A stretch of 46,953 nucleotides of DNA from Chloroflexota bacterium (GTDB lineage Bacteria > Chloroflexota > Chloroflexia > Chloroflexales > Roseiflexaceae), in assembly GCA_013388755.1 (NCBI GenBank), contig JACAEQ010000049.1:1-46953 (forward strand), written 5' to 3'. Position numbers and translations under genes: made by a program. The notes under the pieces are model-generated. The model saw only the letters and a program-made list of their open reading frames with translations. It did no database searches and was not told where the DNA came from. Shown here piece by piece: positions 4,833-15,516 of this stretch (position 1 is the stretch's first letter; the number at the start of each line of letters is the position of its first letter).

Positions 4833-5855
4833 ATGGCCAGGATTTACTACGAAAACCACGCCGACCTGTCCCGCCTTGCGGGTCGTACCATCGCGATTAT
4901 CGGCTTCGGTAGCCAGGGTCACGCCCACGCGCTGAATCTCAAAGAGAGTGGCTGCGATGTTGTGGTCGGCCTGTATGGCGGGTCGAAAAGCTGGGGCAAG
5001 GCCGAAGGCCTTGGTCTGAAGGTACGCACCGTTGCCGATGCGGCGAAAGAAGCACAGATAATCATGATCGTCACACCCGATACTGGACAGGCGGCGCTCT
5101 ATCGCGACGAGATTGCGCCCGCCATGACCACCGGCAAGACGCTGATGTTCGCCCACGGCTTCAATATTCGCTTTGGCCAGATCGTTCCTCCTGAAGGTGT
5201 GGATGTCAGCATGGTCGCGCCCAAGGCACCCGGGCATCGGGTACGCGAGGTCTACACGCAGGGTGGCGGCGTACCGGCGCTGGTCGCCGTCCACCAGGAC
5301 GCATCAGGCAATGCGCTGGCCGATGCGCTGGCCTATGCACGCGGCCTCGGCTGCACACGCGCCGGTGTGCTCGAAACAACGTTTGCTGAAGAGACCGAGA
5401 CGGATCTGTTCGGGGAGCAGGTTGTATTGTGCGGCGGCGTGTCGGCGCTGGTCAAAACGGCCTTTGAGACACTCGTCGACGCCGGCTATCAGCCTGAGGT
5501 GGCGTATTTCGAGTGTATGCACGAACTGAAGCTGATCGTTGACCTGTTCTACCAGGGCGGGCTAAACTACATGCGCTATTCGGTCAGCGATACCGCCGAG
5601 TGGGGCGACTATACCGCCGGGCCGAAGATTATTACCGATGAGACGCGCGCAACCATGAAGCGCATCCTGGCCGATATCCAGAGTGGCGCATTTGCGGAGG
5701 ACTGGATTGAGGAAAATCACAATGGCCGGCCGCGTTTCAATGCCTACCGGGCGAAGGATGTCTCGCACCAGATCGAGCAGGTGGGTCGCGAATTGCGCCG
5801 TATGATGCCGTTCGTCAATCCGCGCGAGGTGACGCCAGGCGAGGGTGGGGCCTGA
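4833..5855 (+). CDS. ilvC: ketol-acid reductoisomerase
   Basis: Catalyses the NADPH- and Mg-dependent rearrangement and reduction of acetohydroxy acids to dihydroxy acids for Val, Leu and Ile. At 340 residues it is a class I (short) enzyme. The N-terminal Rossmann motif [17 protein letters not shown] lies at about residues 18-34. The knotted C-terminal domain shows [11 protein letters not shown], the E-x-x-H segment [12 protein letters not shown] and [11 protein letters not shown]. The frame stays open upstream to 4725, but the family N-terminus [12 protein letters not shown] starts at 4833; AGGAG lies 14 bases ahead, which is rather long. The stop codon directly abuts the first heptamer array. 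Confidence 0.95.
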
Positions 5856-5988
5856 GAGAACCGAGGACGGAGGACGGAGAACCGAGGACGGAGGATGGAG
5901 AACCGAGAACCGAGAACCGAGAACCGAGGACGGAGGATGGAGAACCGAGAACCGAGGACGGAGGACGGAGGACGGAGAACCAGGAACC
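5856..5988. repeat. heptanucleotide tandem array A
   Basis: Eighteen perfect 7-bp units run without a break from 5856 to 5981, drawn from GAGAACC, GAGGACG and GAGGATG, then a degenerate AGGAACC. The two unit types are mixed, not in a simple higher-order order. The array starts on the base after the ilvC stop codon. Its register AGAACCG matches, on the opposite strand, the AGAACTG unit of array B at 6513-6596. The two arrays therefore flank the four-helix-bundle gene in inverted orientation. Confidence 0.95.
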
Positions 5989-6029
5989 GGGAGCTCCAGA
6001 TCAAGCATCGAGAATAGCATCGTGAGGGA

Positions 6030-6512
6030 ATGGCGAGGGACATTGTGTCGAGCGACTATACCTATCGAAAACTGATTGTCTGGGATCGGGCGCAGCGACT
6101 TGCGCTTGAGGTATTGAAACTCGTCCAGCGATTGCCGTCGGGTTGGGGAACGGCCGTTATTGCACGTCAGATCATCGGTTCAGCAACATCAATCGGCGCG
6201 AATATTGCTGAGGGGCATGGCCGTTTTACACCCGGCGCGCATCGCAATCATCTGTCAATCGCGAAAGGGTCGGCGGCGGAAACTGATAGCTGGCTTGATC
6301 TGCTCTGTCGTGCTGGCCATCTTTCGGAGGAGGAAGAAGCCAGGTTGCACACGGAATGCCATGAGATCATGGCCATGTTGACCAGTAAGATTCGTAAGCT
6401 GGGAGATTCCGTGAATCAGTCTCCTTCCGTGGTTCGCGAAGAAACGGCATCTTATCAGACTGATACGCCCACCGAGCCGCCGTTTCCATTCGTTCCCGAA
6501 GACTATTTGTAG
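6030..6512 (+). CDS. four-helix-bundle protein, S23/23S rRNA intervening-sequence family
   Basis: 160 residues. The core matches the family pattern: YRKLIVWDRAQRLALEVLKL, IARQIIGSATSIGANIAEGHGR, HRNHLSIAKGSAAETDSWLDL, then a helix ending near residue 123. These proteins were first seen in insertions of 23S rRNA genes and are structurally related to the Avd accessory protein of diversity-generating retroelements; a molecular role is not established. The last 35 residues are an acidic/proline-rich tail. The start is uncertain: ATG 6030 has GAGGGA touching it, while in-frame GTG 6045 has GAGGG five to six bases upstream. It sits alone between two inverted heptamer arrays within the ilv-leu operon, which suggests a cassette inserted between ilvC and leuA. 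Confidence 0.88.
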   Translation: MARDIVSSDYTYRKLIVWDRAQRLALEVLKLVQRLPSGWGTAVIARQIIGSATSIGANIAEGHGRFTPGAHRNHLSIAKGSAAETDSWLDLLCRAGHLSEEEEARLHTECHEIMAMLTSKIRKLGDSVNQSPSVVREETASYQTDTPTEPPFPFVPEDYL

Positions 6513-6596
6513 CAGTTCTCAGTTCTCAGTTCTCAGTTCTCAGTTCTCAGTTCTCAGTTCTCAGTTCTCAGTTCTCAGTTCTCAGCTCTCAGCTCT
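6513..6596. repeat. heptanucleotide tandem array B
   Basis: Twelve consecutive 7-bp units: ten CAGTTCT followed by two CAGCTCT. The array begins on the base after the stop codon of the four-helix-bundle gene and ends 30 bp before the leuA start. On the minus strand the unit reads AGAACTG, close to AGAACCG of array A. Array B thus occupies essentially the whole upstream region of leuA, leaving no room for a separate promoter. Confidence 0.95.
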
Positions 6597-6626
6597 CGGC
6601 CAATGAAAAGGAGTCATACAGCAATC

Positions 6627-8306
6627 ATGGAGGATCACGTACGCATCTTCGACACCACATTGCGTGACGGCGAACAGGCGCCGGGTTGCACAATGACGCT
6701 GGAGGAGAAGCTGGAAGTTGCACGGCAACTCGCGCGGCTGGGTGTGGATATTATTGAAGCCGGCTTTCCCGCCGCGTCTCCCGGTGACTGGGCGGCAGTG
6801 CACGAGATCGCCGGTGCGGTCGGCTCGCCTGACGGGCCGGTGATTGCCGCGCTGGCACGCGCCAACAAGGACGATATCGACAAGGCGTGGAGCGCGATCC
6901 AGCCGGCTGCGAAGAAGCGCATTCATACGTTCATCTCCTCGTCCGACATCCATATTGAGCACCAGTTCCGTTCCACCCGCGAGGAAATCCTCGAACGCGC
7001 CAGGCTGATGGTGCGCTATGCGCGCTCCCTCTGCGACGATGTCGAGTTCTCGCCGATGGATGCGACGCGTTCCGAACCGGAATATGTCTACCGCATGCTT
7101 GCCGCGGTCGTCGCCGAAGGCGCAACGACGCTCAATATCCCCGACACGGTCGGGTATGCGACCCCGGAGGAGTACGCCGCCCTGATTGCCGGTATCTACC
7201 GGCATGTTCCCGGCGCTGACCGGGTCATCATCTCGACACATTGCCATGACGACCTGGGGCTGGCAGTTGCCAACTCGCTGGCCGGTGTGCGTGCCGGCGC
7301 GCGGCAGATCGAATGCACCATCAATGGTATTGGTGAGCGTGCGGGTAATGCTTCGCTCGAAGAAGTGGTGATGGCGCTGAAAACACGCCGCTCGTTCTTC
7401 AATGTTGATACGCGGATCAACACGCGTGAACTGGCGCGCAGCAGCCGCTTGCTCAGTACAATCATCGCCATGCCGGTACCGCCGAACAAGGCCATTGTCG
7501 GCGCCAACGCCTTTGCGCATGAATCAGGCATCCACCAGGATGGCGTGCTGAAGCATCGCATGACATATGAGATCATGGATGCAACGACCATTGGCCTGGA
7601 TGGTAATTCGCTCATTCTGGGGAAGCATTCGGGCCGCAATGCGCTGCGCACGAAGCTGGCGGCAATGGGGTATGAATTCGATACCGAGGAGGAGTTCAAC
7701 CAGGTCTTCCAGCGCTTTAAGGAGCTGTGCGACAAGAAGAAGGTCGTGGATGACCGCGACCTGGAGGTGCTGGCGACTGGCGGCTCGTTGCATACGCCAG
7801 AACTGTACCGCCTGGAGCATGTGCAGGTGACCTGCGGTACCGGCGTTACACCGGTCGCGACGGTGCGCATCATTGATCCGGATGGTCATGCGACCACGAC
7901 AGCAGCGCATGGTACCGGCCCGGTTGACGCGATCTACAAGGCTATTGACCGGGTGGTCGGGCGACCGAATGAGCTTATTGAGTTTTCGATCAAGGCGGTG
8001 ACCGAAGGGATTGATGCGGTGGCCGAAGTGTCGGTGCGGGTGCGTGAGCCGGGCGACGCCGTGACGGAGGGCGAGTATCGCGTCGGGCGGCATCGTGGGC
8101 CGCAGATTTACAGCGGCTACAGCGCCAATACCGATACCATCGTTGCCGCAGCCGAGTCGTACATGGCGGCGCTGAACAAGATGATCGCCGCGCGCCAGGA
8201 ACGGTTGAGCGCCGAGAATGCAGCCTATGCCGCCGGGTATGATCGCACGAAGCCGACCTATGCCGTGGACCTGTTCGGCCAGAATGCCGTCGGGGCGACG
8301 GAGTAG
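6627..8306 (+). CDS. leuA: 2-isopropylmalate synthase
   Basis: First committed step of leucine synthesis: acetyl-CoA plus 2-oxoisovalerate to 2-isopropylmalate. 559 residues. The catalytic TIM barrel starts with [19 protein letters not shown], and the metal-binding HxH is in [34 protein letters not shown] and the linker motif [19 protein letters not shown] follow. The C-terminal third is the regulatory domain ([12 protein letters not shown]), so leucine feedback is possible. ATG 6627 matches the family N-terminus, with AAGGAG 13 bases upstream; another in-frame ATG at 6603 lies before that site and is less likely. Transcription probably comes through from ilvBNC past the repeat cassette. Confidence 0.95.
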
Positions 8307-9300: not shown

Positions 9301-10272
9301 ATGTACGATCTGGTCATTATTGGCGGCGGTGCGGCCAGTCAATCGGCAGCGATGTATGCGATCGGCAAACAGATCCATTTCCTGATGATCTGTGAGAAGC
9401 TGGGTGGCCGCGTCGAAGATGTTGCACCTACCGAACATGACTTTACTCTCGGCAAGATGCTGGTGCATTACGACGCGCCGGATGCCCAGGATGAAGAACA
9501 GCATCTGATTGGCAGCTCCGCTGTTCATCTGTTTGAACGCCAGCTTACAACACAACGTGGGCGGATTCTGGTTGATCGTGTCACGGCAATCGAGCGCGAC
9601 GGCGATGGGTTCCGGATAGTGACGGAGCAGCATGGTGCAAGGAGCAGTCGCGCCGTTATCGTGGCGACCGGGGCCGTGCCGCGCGAGCCAGGGTTGCCGG
9701 GGAAGGGTGCGGCCCATGTGCGCATACTCGGTCACGCAGCCACGACCCACACCAGCAATGTGGCAGGCAAGATCGTGGCTGTGATCGGTATGACTGAACA
9801 GGCGCTCTATGCCACTGCCGAGATGGCGCAACTTGCGCGACACGTCTATCTGCTGACACCAACCACAACCCTGCTCGACAGCCCGATAGGCGCTGCGCTG
9901 GGCCAGCTTCCAAACATCCAGACGCTGGCGCGCGCCCAGATTATTGACGTTGTCGGAACAGGTGCGGTTGAGGAACTGGTTGTTGAACATGCGGGGCGAA
10001 CACATCGTATCGGCGTCGATCTGGCGTTTGTCGATTCAGGGTTGCAACCGCGCAGTAACCTCGTCCAGTCGCTTGTTGAGCTGGATGAGCAAGGTTTTAT
10101 CAAGGTGGATGATCAGAATGCAACAACTGTTCCCGGTCTGTTTGCAGCCGGAGACGTGACCGATGCTCTGGGTGAACAGGTGCTGATCGCGATTGGCGAG
10201 GGTGCACGCGCGGCGATGAGTGCACACCGCTATCTCCTTGAGCGGCCACTGGTGCGCCAGGCAAATCGGTAG
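9301..10272 (+). CDS. thioredoxin-reductase-like FAD/NAD(P) oxidoreductase lacking the CxxC
   Basis: 323 residues with a two-dinucleotide-fold layout. The N-terminal FAD motif is LVIIGGGAASQSAAMYA and the C-terminal FAD motif is TTVPGLFAAGDVTD, as in thioredoxin reductases. The region where the redox-active CATC normally sits reads GHAATTHTSNVAGK and has no cysteine; the only Cys in the protein is C31. The NAD(P) fold is also degenerate (VAVIGMTEQALYATAEM instead of GxGxxA). It is therefore unlikely to be a true TrxB; a flavoprotein reductase for another partner, or a sensor, is possible. AGGAGGGAG right upstream is a strong ribosome-binding site. Neighbours are pheA and cimA. Confidence 0.8.
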   Translation: MYDLVIIGGGAASQSAAMYAIGKQIHFLMICEKLGGRVEDVAPTEHDFTLGKMLVHYDAPDAQDEEQHLIGSSAVHLFERQLTTQRGRILVDRVTAIERDGDGFRIVTEQHGARSSRAVIVATGAVPREPGLPGKGAAHVRILGHAATTHTSNVAGKIVAVIGMTEQALYATAEMAQLARHVYLLTPTTTLLDSPIGAALGQLPNIQTLARAQIIDVVGTGAVEELVVEHAGRTHRIGVDLAFVDSGLQPRSNLVQSLVELDEQGFIKVDDQNATTVPGLFAAGDVTDALGEQVLIAIGEGARAAMSAHRYLLERPLVRQANR

Positions 10273-10321
10273 TGCCGGCGCATGGTGCGGAGTCTGTGTA
10301 TGTGCCAGTCAAAGGTGGAGA

Positions 10322-10359
10322 CGGCGGCAGGTTGGCGCAACACTGCGCCCCTGCTGCCG
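10322..10359 (+). other. stable hairpin upstream of cimA
   Basis: Outer stem CGGCGGCAGG (10322-10331) with CCTGCTGCCG (10350-10359), one G-U pair; inner stem GGCGC/GCGCC at 10334-10338 and 10345-10349 with a six-base loop. It is followed by the only partly T-rich ATCATTCGTTG. It may act as a terminator of the preceding gene or as a leader structure for cimA, whose start is 100 bp downstream. No leader peptide rich in Ile/Leu is seen here. Confidence 0.5.
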
Positions 10360-10459
10360 ATCATTCGTTGCACGGATGCTCGGATGCTATTGATGACGTA
10401 GCTGGTTTCGCTGGTACGCCATCGCTTCTCCAGCATTGTTTCACAACAAGGAGCATACT

Positions 10460-12061
10460 GTGCACATTCTGCTCTACGACACGACACTGCGTGATGGAGC
10501 GCAGCGCGAAGGGCTCTCACTCTCGGTCGAGGACAAGCTGAAAATTGCACGCGAGCTGGACATTCTGGGCGTGCACTATATCGAGGGTGGCTGGCCAGGT
10601 TCAAATCCCAAGGATGCGGAATTCTTTCAGCGTGTGCGGCGCGGTATCTTGCGCCATGCAAAAGTTGCTGCCTTTGGCAGCACGCGTCGCGCCGGTTCAC
10701 GCTGCGAGGCCGACGACAACATCCGCGCGCTGGTCGACGCTGAAACTCCTGTCGTGACCCTGGTCGGTAAGAGTTCGATCCTGCACGTCGCGCGTGTACT
10801 CGAGACGACAAGCGCCGAGAATCTGGTGATGATCGCCGAGAGCGTGGCATACTTCAAGCAACGAGGCAAGGAAGTCGTCTACGATGCCGAGCATTTCTTC
10901 GACGGCTATAAGCTCGATGCCGGCTATGCGCTGGCGACGGTTGCCGCCGCTGCCGCTGCCGGCGCCGATTGTGTCGTGCTGTGCGATACCAACGGCGGCA
11001 GCCTGCCGGATGACGTAGCGGCAATCGTCACCGCTGTGCAGCGCCATCTTGCGGCGCGCACCGCCAACGTCCCCACCCTGGGCATCCATACCCACAATGA
11101 TGGCGCGCTGGCCGTGGCGAATGCTCTTGCCGCCGTGCGTGCCGGTTGCACCCATGTGCAAGGGACGGTCAACGGCTATGGTGAACGTTGCGGCAACATG
11201 GATCTGATCCCGCTGATTGCGAACCTGCAGCTCAAGCTTGGCTACCACTGCGTCGCGCCGGAACAGCTCCGGCGCCTGTCGGAGGTGTCGCATGTGGTCG
11301 CTGCGGTCGCCAATCTCAACCCCGATGCCCACGCGCCATATGTCGGTCATTCGGCATTTGCCCATAAGGGCGGCATTCACGTTGCTGCGGTTGCCAAGGC
11401 GCCCGAAAGTTACCAGCATATTGATCCGGCGCTGGTCGGTAACCGGATGCGCGTGGTTGTCAGCGAGCTTGCCGGGCGCGGCAACGTGCGCATGCGCGCC
11501 GAGGAGCTTGGCCTGGATCTGAATGGCAATGAGCGGGTCGTGTTACAACGCATCAAGGAGCTGGAGAAGCGGGGCTTTCAGTTTGAAGCGGCTGAAGGGT
11601 CGTTCGAAATGCTGGTGCGCCGCGCTGCGCCCGATTATGAACCGCCGTTTGAGTTGCTCGACTTTACTGTGGTCGTCAACAAACATGGCGAGAACGATAT
11701 GATCTCGCAGGCCATGGTAAAACTCAAGGTGTGTGGCGAGGTGATGCACACCGCCGCGGAAGGCGCCGGGCCGGTCAATGCGCTCGACAGGGCGATCCGC
11801 AAGGCGCTCTTGCCGCATTACCCCGAACTTGCCGATGTGCAGCTGGCGGACTATAAAGTGCGCATTGTGGATGAACATCTTGGCACGGCTGCCAGGCCGC
11901 GCGTGCTGATCGAATCGGCGCGCGGCGAAGAACGCTGGAGTACGGTCGGTTGCTCAGAGAACATTATCGAGGCCAGTTTTATGGCACTGTGGGATGGACT
12001 GGAGTTGCCGCTGGCGCGGTCTCGTGCCGTTCAACGTTCGACGCTGAACGTTCAACGGTGA
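10460..12061 (+). CDS. cimA: (R)-citramalate synthase
   Basis: Condenses pyruvate and acetyl-CoA to citramalate, the entry to threonine-independent 2-oxobutyrate and isoleucine synthesis. LeuC/LeuD/LeuB, encoded just downstream, carry out the next steps. 533 residues from a GTG start at 10460 with AAGGAG six bases before it; this start gives the family N-terminus HILLYDTTLRDGAQREG. The CimA-type IEGGWPGSNPKDAEFF separates it from LeuA. Also visible are HTHNDGALAVANAL, NGYGERCGNMDL, SAFAHKGGIHV and a C-terminal regulatory domain (GAGPVNALDRAIRKAL). The last residues (AVQRSTLNVQR) are encoded by a repetitive GTTCAACG sequence and look like a repeat-derived extension. Confidence 0.93.
   Translation: MHILLYDTTLRDGAQREGLSLSVEDKLKIARELDILGVHYIEGGWPGSNPKDAEFFQRVRRGILRHAKVAAFGSTRRAGSRCEADDNIRALVDAETPVVTLVGKSSILHVARVLETTSAENLVMIAESVAYFKQRGKEVVYDAEHFFDGYKLDAGYALATVAAAAAAGADCVVLCDTNGGSLPDDVAAIVTAVQRHLAARTANVPTLGIHTHNDGALAVANALAAVRAGCTHVQGTVNGYGERCGNMDLIPLIANLQLKLGYHCVAPEQLRRLSEVSHVVAAVANLNPDAHAPYVGHSAFAHKGGIHVAAVAKAPESYQHIDPALVGNRMRVVVSELAGRGNVRMRAEELGLDLNGNERVVLQRIKELEKRGFQFEAAEGSFEMLVRRAAPDYEPPFELLDFTVVVNKHGENDMISQAMVKLKVCGEVMHTAAEGAGPVNALDRAIRKALLPHYPELADVQLADYKVRIVDEHLGTAARPRVLIESARGEERWSTVGCSENIIEASFMALWDGLELPLARSRAVQRSTLNVQR
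12027..12058. repeat. inverted repeat overlapping the 3' end of cimA
   Basis: CCGTTCAACGTTC (12027-12039) and GAACGTTCAACGG (12046-12058) pair in 12 of 13 positions around a six-base loop. The core ACGTTCAACG/GTTCAACG is also directly repeated. It encodes the C-terminal tail of CimA and lies just before the ilvE promoter. Confidence 0.75.
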
Positions 12062-14878: not shown

Positions 14879-15490
14879 ATGGAGAAGATCTCTTCGATCA
14901 CCGGACGGTTTGTCGTGCTGCCGGTGCAGGATATTGACACGGACCAGATCATTCCGGCACGCTACCTGAAGGTGACCGACAAATCGGGACTGGCAGAGGG
15001 GCTGTTTTTCGCCTGGCGCTTCAATGCCGACGGTAGCCCGAAGCCTGATTTTGTGCTGAATCGCCCCGAGGCGCAGGGAGCGACCATCCTGGTCGCCGGG
15101 CGAAACTTCGGCTGCGGCTCATCACGCGAGCATGCGCCCTGGGCCTTGCAGGGGTACGGCTTTCAGGCGGTCATCAGCCCCTACTTTGCCGATATCTTTC
15201 GCAACAATGCGCTCAAAAATGGCTTGCTGCCGGTACAGGTTGATGAAGAGACCTACGAGCAACTCGTGAGCCTGTTCGACGAGGACCCGACCACTGAGGT
15301 ACGCATTGACCTGGAGTCGCAGTCGGTCACCCTCCCGGACGGGCGCAGTGCCCGCTTCCCGATTGACCCGTTCGCGAAGCATTGTTTACTCAACGGGGTG
15401 GATCAGATGGGCTTCTTGCTGGCGGAGGAGCCGGCAATTGCGGCCTATGAAGCCGGCCATGCGCCGCGCGTGGTCACCACACGTTCCTGA
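14879..15490 (+). CDS. leuD: 3-isopropylmalate dehydratase small subunit
   Basis: The swivel-domain partner of LeuC. 203 residues with [18 protein letters not shown] at the N-terminus and [21 protein letters not shown], the family signature containing the substrate-binding serine/arginine. GGAGG five bases before ATG 14879 decides the start; an in-frame ATG at 14840 lies upstream without such a site. It is followed 26 bp later by leuB. Confidence 0.95.
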
Positions 15491-15516
15491 AAAGCAGCCG
15501 AAAGCGGGGTACTACC

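Follow-up and report, generated by a model that had tools for sequence, protein, structure and literature searches.

The intervening sequence (IVS) in the rRNA of Coxiella burnetii contains an S23 open reading frame (ORF) and a 28 bp terminal stem, carries in its 5′ region GACAGAT heptamers whose copy number differs between strains, and is cleaved by RNase III in vitro (PMC4990558). In our literature search, which left subscription journals and preprints outside its range, this was the only paper to bring S23 or a four-helix bundle together with heptamer repeats. Heptamer arrays have been reported separately: those of Xanthomonas and Nostoc (GGGAATC and GGGGA(C/T)T) have been studied as G-quadruplexes, with 70 inverted array pairs in Xcc and no link to S23 reported (Rehm et al., PMC4692102), and the TAACTGA direct repeats of Beggiatoaceae have been read as post-transcriptional regulatory sites, with S23 left unmentioned (PMC4679880). 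Two other systems invite comparison. In REP/BIME-RAYT pairs, the single gene for TnpA-REP, a Y1 transposase, is flanked by inverted repeats that recur as many dispersed non-coding copies. Avd, a homologous four-helix bundle, serves the diversity-generating retroelements (DGRs), where it works with a reverse transcriptase (RT) and a template repeat.

We analysed a 46 953 nt stretch of a Chloroflexota contig (JACAEQ010000049.1; hereafter, the window), in which an S23 gene stands between inverted heptamer arrays inside the ilv-leu operon. We know of no catalytic function of the S23 protein. The feature is probably a representative of a widespread mobile cassette, in which an S23/IVP gene is enclosed by inverted arrays of 7 bp (sometimes 8 bp) units. 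Cassettes of this kind are spread across many bacterial phyla, phages and plasmids and have apparently not been described so far.

The S23 cassette between ilvC and leuA

The plus-strand gene order in the window is ilvB-ilvN-ilvC-[array A]-S23-[array B]-leuA-pheA (Table 1). As the first-pass annotation had stated, both arrays begin on the base after a stop codon: array A, with 18 units, abuts the TGA of ilvC (5853-5855), and array B, with 12 units to position 6596, follows the TAG of the S23 gene. In array A, GAGAACC alternates with GAGGACG and GAGGATG, and a degenerate tail continues to ∼ 5997. The claim that the two arrays mirror each other holds for the AGAACCG half of array A (AGAACYG) but not for the interspersed AGGACGG units, which have no mirror in array B. 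Of the two candidate starts of leuA, 6603 and 6627, the latter is the probable one.

Table 1. Coordinates of the cassette and of its neighbours in the window.
Feature	Coordinates	Strand	Evidence
ilvC (ketol-acid reductoisomerase), upstream host gene	4833..5855	+	PF07991 + PF01450, ORF
Array A, 5′ arm, 18 heptamers GAGAACC / GAGGACG / GAGGATG	5856..5981	+	sequence, TRF 5856-5989, period-7 score 61
S23 / 23S rRNA-intervening-sequence protein, four-helix bundle, 160 aa	6030..6512	+	PF05635 (6.4e-28), TIGR02436
Array B, 3′ arm, CAGTTCT x10, then CAGCTCT x2 (12 heptamers to 6596)	6513..6597	+	TRF 98% matches, 12.1 copies; period-7 score 75
leuA (2-isopropylmalate synthase), downstream host gene	6603..8306	+	PF00682, PF08502, ORF

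The highest period-7 score in 60 first-order Markov simulations of the entire window was 10, far less than the scores of arrays A and B (Table 1), and there are no other period-7 arrays scoring above 10 in the window. The RNA duplex between the two arms has a predicted energy of -99.3 kcal/mol; the simulations and the minimum free energy (MFE) structures are predictions from single sequences. The product of the S23 gene scores 97.5 bits against PF05635 (curated cut-off 33.8) and 94.7 against TIGR02436 (cut-off 24), and is thus a member of the family. Its solved relatives are 2RLD and 2GSC (XCC0516), each deposit holding five chains of one sequence.

S23 proteins of the ilvC clade (window positions 6460-6512, and orthologues) have in common a C-terminal acidic-aromatic tail, PPFPFxPEDY, which is absent from the generic family. 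Elsewhere in the window, the last codons of a cimA-like ORF consist of two degenerate heptamer units, AACGTTC AACGCTG (12033-12061), so that an array seems to have lengthened its reading frame.

Age and upkeep of the ilvC-leuA copy

S23 genes are present in seven of 30 ilvC-leuA junctions, the window (L014) included, the others being L016, L017, L018, L024, L025 and L041; further copies are L058 (G005, upstream of leuA) and L071 (G019). Damaged copies at ilvC-leuA are the frameshifted L016, L025 with its internal TGA, and the truncated relic L019. Where most of the gene is left, the upstream arm is of the AGAACNN type and the downstream arm is its inverse; in L024 and L058, both arms have period 8. 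In all nine ilvC-type cassettes, one arm is paired with the other in the predicted MFE structure. A gene conserved at this locus without arrays, which the first-pass annotation had named as counter-evidence to look for, did not turn up: the copies in relatives that retain most of their length all keep their arrays, and only the relic L019 lacks a downstream one.

In the phylogenetic tree, the S23 copies of the ilvC junction form one clade together with two copies that another family has at its pheA-cimA junction (L054 and L055). The dN/dS values are 0.03-0.22 overall and 0.10-0.22 between the gene of the window and its orthologues at this junction, which indicates purifying selection. Thus, the ilvC-leuA copy is an old insertion that has been relocated once, is selectively maintained and vertically inherited across two families, and has not freshly moved. 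Its history would have comprised insertion, vertical inheritance, a single relocation to the pheA-cimA junction and several losses.

Empty ilvC-leuA junctions include L015 (27 bp, one unit left), and two others (L033 and L036) have an inverted array pair and no S23 gene. The comparison of empty sites suggested for this junction did yield S23-free relatives; the clean empty sites come from phages and plasmids (see below). In relatives that lack S23 (L026-L032, L034 and L037), strong, unrelated hairpins occupy this same place between the two genes.

Arrays of period 7 or 8 accompany S23 genes

A scan of 85 000 genomes returned 79 S23 loci from many phyla. Coverage by period-7 arrays beside these genes was 14.3% at 0-50 bp and 0.23-0.47% at 1-10 kb. 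Period-8 coverage fell from 3.2% near S23 to less than 0.15%, and other periods were near zero. On the same contigs, arrays lay beside 40 of 75 S23 genes versus 34 of 581 other genes, and inverted matched pairs beside 19 of 75 versus 1 of 581, which bears out the expectation that period-7 arrays would flank S23 genes more often than other genes. The idea that the arrays are a generic intergenic feature was rejected on this control.

The match between the two arms is specific to each locus. When upstream 150 bp flanks were compared with reverse-complemented downstream flanks at 75 loci, the mean complementarity score was 16.0 within a locus and 7.7 across loci; the locus' own partner was the best match in 36 cases and within the top 5% in 51 (3.75 expected), and clear complementarity was absent in 24 of the 75 pairs. 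Control flanks displaced by 0.5-5 kb gave a faint excess at best (own partner within the top 5% in 3/69, 6/51 and 5/39). The arms also have a polarity, the 5′ arm being G-richer and the 3′ arm C-richer: upstream, G exceeds C in 32 cases versus 1, and downstream C exceeds G in 34 versus 3. The upstream neighbour of the S23 gene is codirectional in 49 of 55 cases.

Unit sequences are free to differ. The seven S23 copies of Niastella have seven different units, every one of them matched or nearly so from left to right; likeness of units between loci is limited to closely related S23 proteins, and the units change more quickly than the protein does. Since stop triplets are only mildly over-represented in the units (20/39 versus 14.3 expected, sd 2.7), a seed derived from the stop codon of the target was not adopted. 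Across 12 genomes, array density was 25 arrays in 831 kb for S23-positive versus 3 in 894 kb for S23-negative genomes. Other junctions occupied by S23, with neighbours read from translations, are accB-accC, hisA-hisF, nuoC-nuoD, one in an efflux operon and one at leuB; carA-carB was identified from the N-terminal residues of the ORF that follows.

Two further loci deserve separate mention. At L136 (2768-3428), an inserted ORF, which by eye has the look of a GIY-YIG-type endonuclease (YYYTYVLLSDKDQKFYTGYTSD...), interrupts the S23 gene. On a Cloacimonadota contig (L123), two S23 genes that are 96% identical (9982-10363 and 15103-15496) lie ∼ 5 kb apart, both with TTAGGTG-type arms; they are a recent duplication in which the arrays moved along with the gene.

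Other S23 genes of the genome and dispersed arrays

The genome to which the window belongs (G000, 5.08 Mb) has four PF05635 genes, all four between 7 or 8 bp arrays and all with different units: GGAACGT; GAGAACC/CAGTTCT; GGGTTAA/TAACCCC; and an 8 bp unit of the GATTGCGA type. In the tree, the three genes other than the ilvC copy scatter among distant lineages, including other phyla. The GATTRCGA unit of another G000 cassette is confined to ∼ 1.3 kb around its own S23 gene and is thus not a dispersed unit. An RT gene (G000:C140:17042-18007) lies ∼ 5 kb from the fourth S23 gene.

Arrays with the unit of the ilvC-type arms (AGAACYR x3) were found in all ten genomes with an ilvC-type cassette or relic versus five of 28 others, a count that leaves out G028 and G037, whose cassette unit is AGAACAT, and takes genomes without correction for phylogeny. 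Nine of these ten genomes have 22 to 462 such matches each and the tenth has one. Among the five positive others is G003, whose ilvC site has one unit left and no gene. Arrays of AGAACAT are confined to the genus in which the S23 arms have this unit. Among 250 genomes of Lysobacterales, where the arms of the accB-S23-accC cassette are GGGAATC, GGGAATC arrays go together with S23 (30/36 versus 64/214, odds ratio 11.7, p 1.6e-9, not corrected for phylogeny). Of the arrays far from S23, 24 of 72 have an inverted matching partner nearby.

Occupied and empty sites

Close relatives with and without the cassette were available at three junctions. In a phage group (L302-L312), three contigs (L308, L309 and L312) have the block inserted antisense to a phage gene, whose Shine-Dalgarno sequence lies on one side of it and whose ATG lies on the other; eight related contigs are empty. 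On plasmids of Calothrix brevissima, the block lies between the stop codon of an integrase gene and the next ATG; in the homologous plasmids of Tolypothrix, Aulosira, Nostoc and Nodularia that were examined, this junction measures 2 to 3 bp and is empty. A Nostoc edaphicum plasmid has the block between nrdB and nrdA, antisense to the operon, and Calothrix NIES-4105 is empty there. In the phage and plasmid comparisons, the arrays form part of the inserted block. The clean empty sites show that gene and arrays arrived together, and several packages of S23 plus arrays are proven insertions.

No target-site duplication was visible in the three comparisons, and no recombinase partner of the cassette was identified. 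A consensus query of the INPHARED phage collection gave no S23; IMG/VR contigs do have S23.

With these empty sites and the dispersed arrays that share the arm unit, both proposals of the first-pass annotation, a mobile cassette and a logic like that of REP/RAYT pairs, stand, the latter with a protein that is unrelated and non-enzymatic.

Discussion

The cassette resembles the 23S rRNA IVSs in its PF05635 protein, in its heptameric repeats and in the order inverted repeat, S23 ORF, inverted repeat; enclosure by complementary, stem-forming termini is here a matter of prediction (MFE structures of nine cassettes and the A:B duplex). IVSs sit inside 23S rRNA and are cut out by RNase III with no religation, whereas the cassettes lie between protein genes, in the window between ilvC and leuA, and on plasmids and phages, and no census locus had at least two 23S rRNA motifs. 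The cassettes further differ from IVSs in having site-specific matched arrays and dispersed array-only copies. Such copies (AGAACYR; GGGAATC in Lysobacterales) and the single gene between inverted repeats are shared with REP/RAYT systems, but the cassette protein is a four-helix bundle with PF05635 as its only domain and no Y1 (HUH) transposase, and its repeats are tandem 7 or 8 bp arrays of free unit sequence. Neither the fixed terminal inverted repeats nor the target-site duplication of MITEs and insertion sequences is found, the unit being different at each site. Like the cassette arms, the arrays of Xanthomonas and Nostoc have period 7, lie between aligned ORFs and form many convergent inverted pairs, and their GGGAATC unit also forms the arms of accB-S23-accC, a cassette from the same order, Lysobacterales. 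G-quadruplex formation, by which those arrays have been explained, was rejected as a general function, since units of the AGAACYG, AATTATG and GATTATG types have no G-tracts and the first and last of these cannot form quadruplexes. The TAACTGA repeats of Beggiatoaceae are likewise dispersed intergenic heptamer arrays, and their unit is also the one that flanks S23 genes at L061 and L064.

Site-private arrays that match from left to right, together with the proven insertions, point to a widespread kind of mobile cassette. It is best read as IVS-like, mostly sense-oriented in operon junctions, with arms able to pair in RNA. A resident, non-mobile regulatory module, whose intercistronic hairpin sets the relative expression of the flanking genes and whose S23 protein regulates that hairpin by binding its RNA, would fit the age and conservation of the ilvC-leuA locus, the purifying selection on the gene, the pairing of the arms in MFE structures and the presence of other strong hairpins at S23-free junctions; given the clean empty sites at three unrelated junctions, the antisense orientation of the phage and nrd genes and the spread of one genome's S23 genes over the tree among other phyla, we consider it unlikely. 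It is decidedly unlikely that the arrays are a passive mutational product, grown by slippage and matched by template switching between arms, with S23 as a tolerant bystander: in many bacterial genomes heptamers are more common than any other longer simple repeat (a survey by Mrazek, cited in PMC4679880) and the units do change faster than the protein, but the arrays are strongly specific to S23 over other genes and to periods 7 and 8, have a G-rich/C-rich polarity relative to the ORF and arrive together with the gene.

An RT recruited by S23, building the arrays and copying the cassette in the manner of Avd/DGR systems or of telomerase, would explain a fixed period with free sequence. The link to Avd drawn in the first-pass annotation survives as homology of PF05635 to Avd (PMC10053308) but not as a need for RT: the near-complete S23-positive genomes G015 (four S23 genes), G036 and G007 have no RVT_1 match, and the weak Avd-like match beside an RT at L067 has no arrays. 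Dependence on RT was therefore rejected, and we regard such a system as very improbable. The L067 locus itself (G031:C15:4494-5655) is probably a DGR; as a negative control it is useful. There is only the slightest chance that S23 genes insert preferentially into arrays already present. Inverted pairs without S23 exist, as at L033 and L036 and among the distal arrays with an inverted partner, but the phage and plasmid empty sites examined are free of arrays, on which ground this route was rejected, and it would leave direct rather than inverted flanks.

How a mobile cassette of this kind might work can be sketched from the layout of its parts. In the operon transcript, the two arms would pair into a long hairpin with the S23 ORF looped out, as in 23S rRNA IVSs, and RNase III would probably trim this hairpin. 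An oligomeric S23 protein may bind the arms or the hairpin and favour copying of the arms. The arms could stay matched through repeated recopying of one from the other, by fold-back or by template switching, or through selection for pairing, and array-only copies would be non-autonomous offspring of the cassette. We tentatively suggest, as a possibility and no firmer, that the ends are specified by period and not by sequence: the S23 oligomer would measure 7 (or 8) nt and, with host replication or repair, build and recopy arrays of any unit, their arms always matching, and seed array-only copies genome-wide. If true, such an element would need neither transposase nor RT, the rRNA IVSs would be a special case of it, and it would account for much of the heptamer-repeat excess of bacteria.

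The analogy with REP/RAYT pairs stands, at a far wider scale than first proposed. PF05635 is a large family, found across phyla, whose function is not known, and the surplus of heptamer arrays in bacterial genomes has long been noted but not explained; the link between them gives both a common explanation. It widens the rRNA IVSs into a general kind of mobile cassette that sits in core operons (ilv-leu, accB-accC, hisA-hisF, nuoC-nuoD and nrd), and the old questions of IVS mobility and S23 function become directly testable in ordinary laboratory hosts.
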